64,000 bases of DNA from the NCBI RefSeq assembly GCF_006542375.1, contig NZ_CP038143.1, positions 1,798,001 to 1,862,000 of the forward strand, given 5' to 3'. Source of the stretch: Oecophyllibacter saccharovorans. GTDB taxonomy: Bacteria > Pseudomonadota > Alphaproteobacteria > Acetobacterales > Acetobacteraceae. Position numbers and translations under genes: made by a program. How positions within the stretch are numbered: position 1 is the first letter of the stretch; every line of letters begins with the position of its first letter. Under the pieces are notes generated by a model. The model ran no database searches. It was given only the letters and a program-made list of their open reading frames with translations, and had not been told where the DNA came from. Of the stretch, positions 57,642 to 61,059 are shown piece by piece.

Positions 57642-57723
57642 ACAAAGACCTGTCTCACTGGCAGTTTCTGCCTGGGCGGCTCTTGTCACTCTGAAAGCAG
57701 CCTGATAGAAATCTTCCCGGAAT

Positions 57724-57798
57724 GGGTGCGTAGCTCAGCGGTAGAGCACTGCCTTCACACGGCAGGGGTCACAGGTTCAATCCCTGTCGCACCCACCA
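57724..57798 (+). tRNA. tRNA-Val (anticodon CAC)
   Basis: 75 bases including encoded CCA. Acceptor stem GGGTGCG/CGCACCC; D-arm AGCTCAGCGGTAGAGC; anticodon stem CTGCC/GGCAG with loop TTCACAC giving CAC (reads GTG, valine); T loop TTCAATC. It directly precedes an abrupt AT-rich block, the typical position for an integrated element. Confidence 0.95.
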
Positions 57799-58190
57799 TT
57801 CTGTTTCGCGAAGAAGCTAATGATTTTTTGAAGTTTTGCTATATTTTAAGGGACCATTCAAAGATTTAGAAAAATAATTATTATAATTATTTTTGTAAAT
57901 CATTATAAATATAATATAAAAATAAAAGTATTTATCCTAAAAGTAGATATAAGTGGATACGTCTCCTTATAATTATTTTTATATAAATTTAACTGTGGGC
58001 ATAGAATAGAAGTTATTATAAGATTTTTAATTAATTCAATAACCTCTTTTCCATATAGCTAATAGTTATGTTTCTGATTCCAACAGATGCTAGACACGCC
58101 TTCAAGGAAAGAGTAATTTCAACAAAGGCAGTTTTAGACTTAAATTAAACACATTATACAAAAATTATTTATGTTCTTGGGGGTTGGCTA
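57799..58190 (+). other. AT-rich non-coding block after tRNA-Val
   Basis: About 390 bases of very low GC, made largely of A/T runs, in sharp contrast to the surrounding DNA. A 14-base direct repeat, TTATAATTATTTTT, occurs at 57881-57894 and 57967-57980. No gene, integrase fragment or tRNA-end duplication is visible. Many TATAAT-like hexamers make it a probable promoter region for the downstream gene and a candidate target for xenogeneic silencing (inference). Confidence 0.7.
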
Positions 58191-59750
58191 ATGAAGGTTG
58201 CAGTGTGTCTTGTAGTAAAAAACGAGCAAGAAGAAATTATATATTGGCTTGCGTGGTATAAAGCACTCGGATTTGATACGTTTATCATCTATGATGATTA
58301 TTCCGATGATAACACGGAAGAGGTTATTCTCTCATTAGCCCCAATACTTGATATCCGTTACATGAGAAATGCGGTCAATCATGACTTACATAATATCAGA
58401 CAAGTCCGAGCTTATAATGATGCAGTTACAAAATATGGAAAAGAATTCGAATGGATTTCCTTCTTTGATGCAGATGAATACTTAGATTTATATGGAAATA
58501 GCATAAAATCTTATCTAAGAAATTTTGATAATGCATCTTTAATCGCGTTTAACTGGTGCAATGTTGGTACAAATGGTCATGTAAGCCGTCCAGTAGGACC
58601 GCCAATTACCAATTATGAATATAATGGTAAGAATGATTTATATTGGAATCGCCATACAAAAGTGATCTTCCGCCCCGATAAATTAGCTAAGAAGATCTAT
58701 CAAGTTCATAATGTATCTGTTCATGGAGAAAGTGTGGATTCTGAAGGATTATCTGTGAAATGGGAGAATGAGCATGGGGGCTTTACCTCAAATCCTCCTA
58801 CTTGGAAAGGAGGCCGCCTTATTCATTATCAATCTAGATCAATAGAACACTATGTCAAAAGAGATAAAAATATTGAAGACGTTCGACGGGATAAAGGAGA
58901 CCCTTTACACACTGTTGCAAAGAGTGAAGAGTACAACTCGCTGTTTAATCCTGTATCCACTGTGACATTGGTAAAATTTTATGAGTGGATGTTACATTTC
59001 GCAAATCAGCAGGCACGTATTCTAATTGAAAGTTTGAGAGCTAAACCTTCTGGCTTCCTAGCAGAGCTAGCACATATAGTAACTCCATCTAATGTGTCTA
59101 TTTTCGATCCATCTTATATTCCTTTGCAACATGAAGTTGACAGAAACTGGATCTCTGAAGAAAAGTTAGAAGGAAATATCTTTAAAGACATTGCTATCGA
59201 TAATCAACCATACGTGGCTTTTAACATAAAGAATGCTTTTGGAAATTTGTTGGGAGCACATGAAGGGGAGCTTTCCTTATCTATTAATCCTGAAGAAGCA
59301 CTTATCGGGATTTATATTCACGGAAGTAGATACGTTCATCTCTTTACAAAAGATGGAAAAGGTTTTCGTATTGAAGGTGATGCGCGAATTTTACCTGCGC
59401 TAACCTTTAAAGTGTGGCGTAAGGAAGACCGTAGCGGGTTTCTTTCGCATCCTAGGACTGGTCGTTTCTTAGGGTTTACGCCACAAGGTGAATATTCGGT
59501 AAAAAAAATTAGAGCTTTAGGGTGGGAAGTACTGCATTTTGAGCCAATAGAACTACAAAATCTTCCGAAGCATATTCTTAGGGCTGCTTCTTATCTGGGG
59601 CTTGCAAATAGTTTAGCAGCTCTTAAAGAGGTGAACCCTAGTCCTGAACTTGGCGCCTTACAAATTAATGCCATTACGGCATTAGATGATGTTTCACGTG
59701 AGGTAGTTAAATTAGTTAGTAAAGGCATAATGGGGGAGCATCTTTTCTAA
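58191..59750 (+). CDS. Glycosyltransferase family 2-like protein with C-terminal beta-trefoil-like domain, AT-rich
   Basis: A 519-residue protein. Residues 1 to about 250 are a GT-A glycosyltransferase of the Glyco_tranf_2_4/GT92 type: VAVCLVVKNEQEEIIYWLAWY, IIYDDYSDDNTEEV and the metal-binding DxD at residues 93-95 in WISFFDADEYLDL. Residues about 345-455 contain repeated short strands (YVAFNIKNAFGNLLGAHEG, RTGRFLGFTPQGEYSVK) that resemble a fascin/ricin-type beta-trefoil, often carbohydrate-binding. No signal peptide or membrane segment. GC is far below the neighbours and codons such as TTA, AGA and ATA are frequent, pointing to horizontal acquisition. GGGGG precedes the ATG. Acceptor and donor sugars are unknown. 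Confidence 0.8.
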   Translation: MKVAVCLVVKNEQEEIIYWLAWYKALGFDTFIIYDDYSDDNTEEVILSLAPILDIRYMRNAVNHDLHNIRQVRAYNDAVTKYGKEFEWISFFDADEYLDLYGNSIKSYLRNFDNASLIAFNWCNVGTNGHVSRPVGPPITNYEYNGKNDLYWNRHTKVIFRPDKLAKKIYQVHNVSVHGESVDSEGLSVKWENEHGGFTSNPPTWKGGRLIHYQSRSIEHYVKRDKNIEDVRRDKGDPLHTVAKSEEYNSLFNPVSTVTLVKFYEWMLHFANQQARILIESLRAKPSGFLAELAHIVTPSNVSIFDPSYIPLQHEVDRNWISEEKLEGNIFKDIAIDNQPYVAFNIKNAFGNLLGAHEGELSLSINPEEALIGIYIHGSRYVHLFTKDGKGFRIEGDARILPALTFKVWRKEDRSGFLSHPRTGRFLGFTPQGEYSVKKIRALGWEVLHFEPIELQNLPKHILRAASYLGLANSLAALKEVNPSPELGALQINAITALDDVSREVVKLVSKGIMGEHLF

Positions 59751-59787
59751 AAGAGAGATAGTTTTTGAAGAGTATAGATCTTTCAAG

Positions 59788-61059
59788 TCATTTTTTAACA
59801 TTAAATATTTTGAAGGGGTTTAAATATTGGGCGGTTCCATGAAGCCTGGCAGGCACGCCGGCAACAGAGATGCGGAAGAGCTGGACAGGAAAGTGAATTC
59901 TCGTCTGGCCTTTGTTGAATGGCGCAGCACGGTCAAGCTGTGAAACCGGTAACCAGAGCAAACCCTGGCTGTCCAGAAAAGGTGCATCAACCCAGTGAAG
60001 TTCCGGGCTGCGGGTGAGGGTGCTGATCGTGCCGTCAGGCGCACGGACCTGCTCGGCATCCTCGCGGAGATTGCTGAAATAAAGGTTGCCCTCGGCATCA
60101 ATGGCGGTCCCGCCGACAGGTGGCAGGTTGGCCCAGGGGCTGACCTGTGCCTCCAGCTGGGCGGGGGAAAGGTCCGGGTTTTCCAAGGCGGCAGTGGGGA
60201 CTTTCGACCAGGGACCTTCCAGCGTGCCGAAATAAAGCCAGCTTCCATCCGGACTGACCTCAATCGGGTCCGTGTTGATCCGTAAAGGTTTGCCGTCCGG
60301 GGCACGAACGATGGTCGTTGTGGCGGGAATGGTGGTATCTGCACTTCCGGGAGGGGCAAAAGGCACGACAATCGGCCGGTCGGGTTGCGCAGTGGTCGCA
60401 GGCACAGCGTTGAGAACGCGCCTGGCCTGACCTGTATCCATGTTCAGGACGAGAAGCCCTGGCCGACCCGCGTCGGTCAGGAAGGCGTAGGGACCATGAA
60501 AGCGGACATCATCAATATAGCTTCCAGGCAGCGCCAGCTCCGGACCAAGAGGGTAGATGCGCCGAATCTGGCCGTTTGTCGCGTCTATACGAACGACTTT
60601 GGCGGCATTCGGCAGCGGGCCGCTTCCGAATACGGGCGTGCCTGTATCCACAATCCACAAATCGCCATCCGGCGCTATGTGGAGCGCGTTGACGTTGACA
60701 AATTTATGACGCGGGTCCTCCCCGGGACGCCAGGAATTCCAGTCTGCATCCGGCCAGGGGGTCTGAGTATCGGCCCCGGTGCTGGCCACTGAGAGAAACT
60801 GTCTGTTATCTGATGCAGGCCAGGCCCAACGTGGACCGCCAACAAGGGTGGCGCCCCGAAACCGGGCGACAGCGTTCCAGACCATGTGTCTGGTTTGCGC
60901 AACCTGCTGCAGGGGCAGCGACCCAGCTCGGGCGACCGAAGAAGCAGCGCTGCCGAGAAAAATTCCCGCCAGTACGCCGCCTACCAGACAACGTTGCAAG
61001 GGTGTACTCTTTAAGGAGCGCGGGAAATTCAGGACCGAACCCAGGAAAAAAGAAAACAT
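59788..61059 (-). CDS. Exported MRJP/yellow-like six-bladed propeller protein
   Basis: A 423-residue protein with a long signal peptide (residues 1-45, LAGIFLGSAASSVARAG). The mature part fits the major royal jelly protein/yellow family: KFVNVNALHIAPDGDLWIVDTG, AAKVVRIDATNGQIRRIYPLG, SYIDDVRFHGPYAFLTDAGRPGLLVLNMDTG, DPIEVSPDGSWLYFG, GGTAIDAEGNLYFSNL. Insect yellow proteins act in melanin metabolism; bacterial relatives are mostly uncharacterised and may be lactonase-like. The last dozen codons (NPFKIFNVKK and stop) lie in AT-rich DNA, so the C-terminus may have been altered by the neighbouring insertion. Confidence 0.78.
   Translation of the reverse strand: MFSFFLGSVLNFPRSLKSTPLQRCLVGGVLAGIFLGSAASSVARAGSLPLQQVAQTRHMVWNAVARFRGATLVGGPRWAWPASDNRQFLSVASTGADTQTPWPDADWNSWRPGEDPRHKFVNVNALHIAPDGDLWIVDTGTPVFGSGPLPNAAKVVRIDATNGQIRRIYPLGPELALPGSYIDDVRFHGPYAFLTDAGRPGLLVLNMDTGQARRVLNAVPATTAQPDRPIVVPFAPPGSADTTIPATTTIVRAPDGKPLRINTDPIEVSPDGSWLYFGTLEGPWSKVPTAALENPDLSPAQLEAQVSPWANLPPVGGTAIDAEGNLYFSNLREDAEQVRAPDGTISTLTRSPELHWVDAPFLDSQGLLWLPVSQLDRAAPFNKGQTRIHFPVQLFRISVAGVPARLHGTAQYLNPFKIFNVKK

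Follow-up and report, generated by a model that had tools for sequence, protein, structure and literature searches.

A laterally imported glycosyltransferase gene beside tRNA-Val(CAC) of Oecophyllibacter saccharovorans, and its probable acquisition at a tRNA integration site

Introduction

Genomic islands associated with tRNA genes, which are made by tyrosine recombinases, constitute a known class. We describe here a locus that resembles this class in part, found in a stretch of 64,000 nucleotides of Oecophyllibacter saccharovorans, of the Acetobacteraceae (contig NZ_CP038143.1, positions 1,798,001 to 1,862,000 of the forward strand; hereafter the window, whose numbering we use), where an AT-rich block with one glycosyltransferase gene follows the 3' end of tRNA-Val(CAC). 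As in the known islands, the foreign DNA starts at a tRNA 3' end, and the same tRNA is accompanied by integrases in two other genomes of the family (G319 and G389 in our collection), islands of the class being seen among the relatives in G319 and G401; unlike them, the block has neither an integrase nor a duplicated tRNA end, and it holds one gene only.

A second system for comparison is TarP of Staphylococcus aureus, which is reported to be a glycosyltransferase of the phage- or plasmid-borne type that alters surface polymers (PMC9650247). The window protein likewise appears as a single laterally moved enzyme of the GT-A fold, TarP and TarS being among the best Protein Data Bank (PDB) matches of its modest full-length model, and, as with mobile enzymes of the TarP type, one close copy lies on a plasmid and one distant copy among phage genes; it differs in its predicted beta-trefoil tail, in not residing in a phage here, and in giving no solved-structure relative at E ≤ 0.1 in a profile search of PDB sequences. 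The Pfam families GT92 and GT2_4 both match its N-terminal half above their curated cut-offs, whereas the second half, predicted as a beta-trefoil, has no Pfam match. The SunS-type peptide S-glycosyltransferases supply the top Foldseek match of the full-length model and a weak NCBIfam match (TIGR04195, 15.2 bits against a cut-off of 350), and at that score the protein is not a member of the SunS group.

We consider it probable that a single-gene cassette for a putative surface-glycan glycosyltransferase was laterally acquired at the tRNA-Val(CAC) hotspot and that its carrier was then lost. The import of the gene, taken by itself, is almost certain; the grades given to the import and to the routes of entry are our own judgement. 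Lateral gains of this sort are common enough, and the by-product of interest is a scattered subfamily of trefoil-tailed enzymes. The locus offers a worked example in which a small genome has gained, at a tRNA end, one gene that putatively modifies the cell surface; it shows that in acetic acid bacteria tRNA-Val(CAC) is a site of integration, and it points to an uncharacterised build, a GT92-type domain plus a predicted beta-trefoil, which among the genomes searched occurs at full length in Acetobacteraceae only and of which one subfamily appears to move between genera.

The AT-Rich Block and Its Borders

Measured per 300 bp, the guanine-plus-cytosine (GC) content falls from about 0.58 ahead of tRNA-Val(CAC) to 0.23 directly past its CCA end, and it is again 0.55–0.62 from about 59800–59950 onward. 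The preliminary description of this DNA had reported just such a sharp AT-rich block of about 2 kb right after the CCA, and the measurements agree, with recovery at about 59830: from 57798 to that point the GC content is about 0.35, against 0.59 for the window overall, and the 1.9-kb stretch from 57801 has 0.352, the lowest other 1.9-kb stretch in the window having 0.539. Besides a non-coding part of 0.39 kb, the block contains a single gene, intact and of 519 amino acids.

None of the other tRNAs among the 42 of the genome has a 3' flank as AT-rich as that of tRNA-Val(CAC), be it over 200, 500, or 1500 bp (GC 0.20, 0.27, and 0.33, respectively); that of tRNA-Glu(CTC) comes second at all three lengths. 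We also surveyed 490 kb of the same genome, a sample that is not purely random, as it comprises 17 even 20-kb stretches, the window with the region downstream of it, and the loci of three paralogues; in it, with its 11 tRNAs, the 1.5-kb average GC drops below 0.45 at three places in all, namely the present block, a segment that starts from the tRNA-Glu(CTC) 3' end, and a segment with a reverse-transcriptase gene and no tRNA near. By these composition figures and by its rank among the tRNA flanks, the block is therefore real and an outlier in the genome.

On the left, the AT content is not yet so high in the initial 25 nt or so past the CCA, which to the eye look like the sequence that flanks the host tRNA-Val(GAC), so the foreign DNA may begin near 57824, and these first nucleotides may be the native 3' flank of the tRNA; the sequence upstream of tRNA-Val(CAC) is promoter-like and, again by eye, common to relatives. 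On the right, composition was said to recover inside the next gene, and the break indeed lies at about 59830–59840, within the last codons of a gene for a protein like the major royal jelly proteins (MRJP), whose similarity to its homologue in another genome, G090, stops at residue 409 of 423.

We looked at both borders for repeats, direct (short) or inverted, and for a second copy of the tRNA end. No such copy was found on the right, in the window, or in 19 kb beyond it, if one sets aside the gene for tRNA-Val(GAC) and matches of at most 20 nt that are due to chance, and a whole-genome search at E ≤ 1 returned other tRNA-like genes and one 17-nt match only; the lack of a nearby integrase and of a duplicated tRNA end, already remarked upon at first sight, is confirmed. 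The best direct repeat, of 9 nt (57825 and 59762), was rejected as a target-site duplication, since by a rough estimate it is unremarkable between AT-rich stretches of 200–250 bp.

In the non-coding block, an Rfam scan with an E-value threshold gave the tRNA alone above its family's gathering score; the known RNA HPnc0260, on the minus strand and overlapping the tRNA, reached 54.2 bits against a gathering score of 59 (E 6.8e-5), and we took it as a chance match. Nucleotide relatives of the block were absent from the plasmid and phage collections.

The Glycosyltransferase and Its Predicted Tail

The gene has a GC content of 0.377, a third-position GC (GC3) of 0.287, and a codon-adaptation score of 0.46, against 0.599 (standard deviation, sd, 0.017), 0.674 (sd 0.041), and 0.695 (sd 0.039) for the 36 other open reading frames (ORFs) of at least 250 amino acids in the window, which were picked mechanically. 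The very different codon use that had been noticed for the one gene beside the non-coding block is thereby given figures.

The enzyme had been labelled GT2; more exactly it is a GT92/GT2_4 protein, whose N-terminal half scores 55.0 bits for GT2_4 (PF13704; cut-off 27.5) and 59.8 bits for GT92 (PF01697; cut-off 23), positions 3–182 of the 249 of the GT92 profile being aligned. An AlphaFold model of the full length, from an alignment of eight rows, is modest (mean predicted local distance difference test, pLDDT, 63); Foldseek against the PDB placed it, with low template-modelling (TM) scores, beside the GT-A enzymes SunS (top), TarP, TarS, and SpsA, its C-terminal part matching fascin. Residues 325–519 modelled alone gave a fairly confident 12-strand beta-trefoil (mean pLDDT 82), with PDB matches to fascin, designed trefoils, FGFs, and the carbohydrate-binding modules CBM92 (TMt up to 0.70). 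The second half is thus predicted to fold as a beta-trefoil, and the modelled layout comprises a GT-A domain at about residues 1–230 and the trefoil at about residues 341–453; in Pfam, only two weak, chance-level matches were obtained for this half in a scan of eight members (best E 0.035).

Residues D93, D95, and E96, which may have a role in metal binding, are invariant in all eight aligned members. Given this conservation and an ORF without a stop, the enzyme is probably functional. Its PHROG match is weak (phrog_13126, E 1.3e-6). From the fold and the likeness to mobile glycosyltransferases such as TarP, we infer that the substrate is most likely a cell-surface glycan (capsule, lipopolysaccharide, or exopolysaccharide).

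Distribution of the Relatives

The family search covered 397 Acetobacteraceae genomes, including the present one, and scored no more than three candidates in any of them. Of the 397, 89 have a relative of some kind at E ≤ 1e-20. Full-length matches occur in only four of the 396 others (G350, G008, G061, and G299), and matches over the larger part in four more (G410, G309, G072, and G343), of which the G410 copy is cut by the contig start and those of G343 and G309 appear broken or frame-shifted; the remaining family matches listed reach at most about the first 305 residues. In a collection of named genomes, a scan with the single protein found no relative; a scan with the alignment found eight loci among 49 pattern matches, in Asaia platycodi, Swaminathania salitolerans, Acidomonas methanolica, Commensalibacter papalotli (plasmid pA), Acetobacter estunensis, an Acetobacter metagenome-assembled genome, Gluconobacter cerinus, and, as a shortened copy, Acetobacter musti. 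A protein search had been proposed as the way to the donor lineage; it named no donor species, the best of the seven relatives aligned, which are 46–57% identical to the window protein, being that of G. cerinus at 57%. At the level of the class, 12 of 289 genomes match at E ≤ 1e-10, and in the nine that belong to other families the match extends no further than residue 189; coverage of 80% of the glycosyltransferase is not attained by any record of the phage and plasmid collections. In the searches made, close relatives are thus limited to Acetobacteraceae, rare, and scattered over several genera.

The build as a whole was examined with profiles on 404 ORFs of the loci under study, a number in which overlapping loci are counted more than once. 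A length of about 500 amino acids is seen in many of the more distant relatives too, and the C-terminal profile gives weak matches (E 0.002 to 2e-12) to 10 additional, distinct genes, which include the G072 gene and two host paralogues (G000:C1 near 711835 and 898688). Judging from these matches, the combination of a GT92-type enzyme with such a tail is less unusual in the family, the close subfamily being the rare and scattered part, and we accordingly dropped the idea that the GT92-plus-trefoil build is itself rare.

In a midpoint-rooted gene tree with flagged long branches, the window gene stands with its relatives and is separated from three host paralogues (support 100/99). The tree names no donor, the order among the relatives being without support and seven of 10 inner branches open. 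The Asaia and Swaminathania copies group together, and by eye their place of insertion is common to both, so that inheritance in this pair looks vertical. In three genomes the glycosyltransferase has as a companion a protein of about 410–423 amino acids (L150 8624–9895, L057 5321–6568, and L154 11523–12755); the three are alike by eye, lack a Pfam match, and could be the product of a partner gene, but none was seen beside the glycosyltransferase in the window. Among the papers listed on acetic-acid-bacterial glycosyltransferase or tRNA islands, on beta-trefoil or fascin-like glycosyltransferases, on transfer of bacterial GT92 enzymes, and on Commensalibacter transfer, none was seen to deal with this gene family.

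Absence from G090 and the Case for Import

G090, which belongs to a different genus, is the sole genome among the matches listed that has both flanking genes side by side. The alignment with it halts at window position 57642 and resumes at 59899, and the interval between the flanks measures 478 bp in G090 vs. 2,256 bp here. The glycosyltransferase is absent from this interval, which contains a 93-amino-acid ORF with a weak PHROG match only, and G090 has no match to it anywhere at E ≤ 1e-10. The MRJP-like gene, 69% identical in the two, is the first gene of a block syntenic with G090 to about position 67812.

It had been predicted that an empty site would show tRNA-Val followed directly by the MRJP-like gene, and this arrangement was not found: in G090 the upstream gene is succeeded by the MRJP-like gene, and the tRNA-Val(CAC), identical to ours, comes only after some 8 kb that run from the MRJP-like gene to an alcohol dehydrogenase, 8.5 kb from the upstream gene. 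Since many genomes of the family have the upstream gene and the tRNA in the order found here, the rearrangement seems to have taken place on the side of G090. The upstream gene, of 639 amino acids, is present in 208 of the 397 family genomes, our own included, at E ≤ 1e-20, and tRNA-Val(CAC) lies within 1.5 kb of it in 26 of the 30 best loci, our own again included, these being the top matches and not a random draw. Because the tRNA has moved, G090 supports the absence of the gene, yet it is no clean empty site.

The import is strongly supported by the foreign codon use together with the rarity and scatter of close relatives and the absence from the G090 interval. The codon use of the gene correlates at 0.28 with that of the host window and at -0.03 with that of G090, at 0.60–0.79 with mid-GC relatives, and at 0.87–0.93 with three low-GC Acetobacteraceae stretches. 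Mobility of the subfamily is suggested by a GC content of the gene below that of its surroundings in all 12 relative loci compared, by the C. papalotli plasmid pA copy, which has genes for ParA and a replication initiator close by, along with two other glycosyltransferase-like genes, and by a distant relative (35% identity) in G072, which is found near tail sheath and anti-repressor genes, adjoins a gene weakly like a tape measure, and is also present in an IMG/VR contig; phage carriage is not borne out here, as the flanking genes in the window give no phage family in Pfam. Despite its similar codon use, the Commensalibacter plasmid was ruled out as a recent direct source by the 48% protein identity.

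tRNA-Val(CAC) as an Integration Site in Relatives

The idea that the tRNA 3' end could serve as an integration site was confirmed in other genomes. An integrase survey of 27 genomes (25 relatives with the tRNA located, the present genome, and G090) found one within 1 kb of tRNA-Val(CAC) in at least two. In G389 the integrase lies 0.15–0.2 kb past the tRNA, with no tRNA copy in 19 kb; in G319, two integrase genes follow the tRNA, and its last 45 bases are exactly repeated 22.4 kb downstream, which makes an island of 22.4 kb. In G413, integrase matches lie 6–8 kb past the tRNA. In G124 it is followed by a type I restriction-modification set, with no integrase seen near and a decayed 38-nt tRNA copy (87% identity) at 7.5 kb, which makes an island of about 7.5 kb. 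A copy of the CAC tRNA end is absent from the downstream stretches of nine relatives (G389, G413, G022, G266, G181, G357, G085, G241, and G401), the GAC tRNA gene and 11-nt matches apart. In G401, the other valine tRNA, tRNA-Val(GAC), is accompanied by an integrase and by a repeat that matches at 54 of 55 nt and lies at a distance of 17.6 kb. The tRNA-Val(CAC) 3' end is therefore a real integration site in relatives, used by tyrosine-recombinase elements.

Proposed Acquisition and Its Alternatives

We suggest that an island targeting the tRNA-Val(CAC) 3' end may have brought the glycosyltransferase cassette into the genome and that it would afterwards have lost its integrase and right att copy, the donor perhaps being a low-GC relative. 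The enzyme would add a sugar to a cell-surface glycan and so might alter the surface as seen by phages or by an animal host. Such a decayed island is the route that we favour, at roughly even odds. In its favour, the second AT-rich segment of the genome also starts at a tRNA 3' end, that of tRNA-Glu(CTC). The initial view of an insertion, either a remnant or arrived by recombination, stands as to the import; as to the route, the two are not told apart, with no attR, integrase, or terminal repeat left.

Several observations weigh against the proposal of import on an island, the first of them compositional. The codon-use comparison mostly follows GC and singles out no donor. The gene is lower in GC than its surroundings in all 12 relative loci compared (0.41 vs. 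0.58 in A. estunensis and 0.45 vs. 0.55 in G. cerinus, with a small difference, 0.27 vs. 0.29, on the Commensalibacter plasmid), so that low GC could be a trait of the gene family instead of a sign of import. Host paralogues of the GT92 type, one with a GC content of 0.50, have the same overall build, and two weakly show the C-terminal domain; this enzyme type is therefore not foreign to the lineage. These facts would suit an old native gene whose AT-rich composition persists, for example by binding of a silencing protein or by relaxed selection. We regard this as very improbable, given that the gene is absent from G090, has a GC3 of 0.29 vs. 0.67 for the host, groups with the copies of other genera and not with the host paralogues, and has full-length close relatives that are rare and scattered. 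The gene tree, with its flagged long branches, does not order the members of the gene family.

Other contrary observations concern the site. In the stretches read around the relatives' copies, no tRNA was found, the other members lying between ordinary genes; the subfamily thus shows no preference of its own for tRNAs, and the adjacency to tRNA-Val could be due to chance, the cassette having entered otherwise, by an insertion sequence or by phage or plasmid recombination. The third AT-rich segment of the genome, also of one gene, agrees with such an accident, being without a tRNA near. Against it, the edge of the block falls at the tRNA end and the second segment begins at a tRNA 3' end too, with 11 tRNAs and three segments in the 490 kb examined, and we hold chance adjacency to be unlikely.

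There is also no integrase near our own tRNA-Val, the three PF00589 matches of the genome being at 1632664, 687458, and 488516, and no attR or terminal repeat at the locus; moreover, the position of tRNA-Val differs between this genome and G090, and the history of the locus is not a simple insertion. An integrase may never have been involved if a transforming fragment was anchored on one side only, by homology to the nearly invariant tRNA-Val(CAC), and illegitimate recombination joined its right end to the 3' end of the MRJP-like gene. This homology-facilitated uptake would explain a left edge at the tRNA and a right edge in a gene tail with neither att copy nor integrase, and the tRNA is 97–100% identical in six of seven genomes searched, our own included (G273 has no copy above 89%). 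However, among the stretches read around the relatives' copies, none has tRNA-Val(CAC) followed by this gene, and integrases do use this tRNA in relatives; we therefore see this uptake as a possible but less likely route than the decayed island.

More speculatively, the gene might belong to a roaming one-gene surface-conversion cassette common to the Acetobacteraceae, whose trefoil tail would bind the glycan being modified and which plasmids, phages, and tRNA-targeted islands would spread from low-GC insect symbionts into higher-GC genera, serving phage escape or host adaptation; we put this forward tentatively, as an idea that we doubt more than we believe.

Features of the Locus and Other Observations in the Genome

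Table 1. Coordinates of the features in and around the AT-rich block (window numbering).
Feature	Position	Strand	Remarks
Upstream conserved Acetobacteraceae gene, 639 amino acids	55722..57641	+	left flank; no Pfam match
tRNA-Val(CAC), anticodon CAC	57724..57798	+	left border of AT-rich block; ARAGORN, Rfam RF00005
Non-coding AT-rich block	57799..58190		GC 0.25
Glycosyltransferase gene, 519 amino acids	58191..59750	+	Pfam GT92/GT2_4, codon use, AlphaFold/Foldseek
Part coding for the predicted beta-trefoil, 12 strands	59211..59549	+	model of residues 325–519, PDB matches
AT-rich right end	59751..59829		takes in last codons and stop of MRJP-like gene
MRJP-like gene, 423 amino acids	59788..61059	-	right flank; Pfam MRJP 20.1 bits vs. 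cut-off 19.8

Some further elements of the genome deserve mention in their own right. The 3' flank of tRNA-Val(GAC) is also AT-rich, with a GC content of 0.26 over 200 bp and a length of about 0.3 kb (window numbering about 71797–72090). The AT-rich segment that starts at the tRNA-Glu(CTC) 3' end (about G000:C1:540059–542750) carries a gene for a helix-turn-helix plus ImmA/IrrE-type protease (PADLOC RmrA, 371 bits); the 20-kb stretch around it shows no second copy of the tRNA end. The third segment (about G000:C1:742246–743799, minus strand) is a single gene with a GC content of 0.30 between GC-typical genes, which matches the PADLOC defence reverse transcriptase Drt2 (371 bits) and is another AT-rich one-gene import of this genome. 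A tRNA-Thr(TGT) with an integrase gene directly downstream (488516–488926, minus strand; G000:C1:488310–490900) represents an ordinary tRNA-linked element. Lastly, a CRISPR-like array at about 714–717 kb of G000:C1 has 50 copies of repeats of about 28 nt at a spacing of 61 nt, with at least one spacer present twice.

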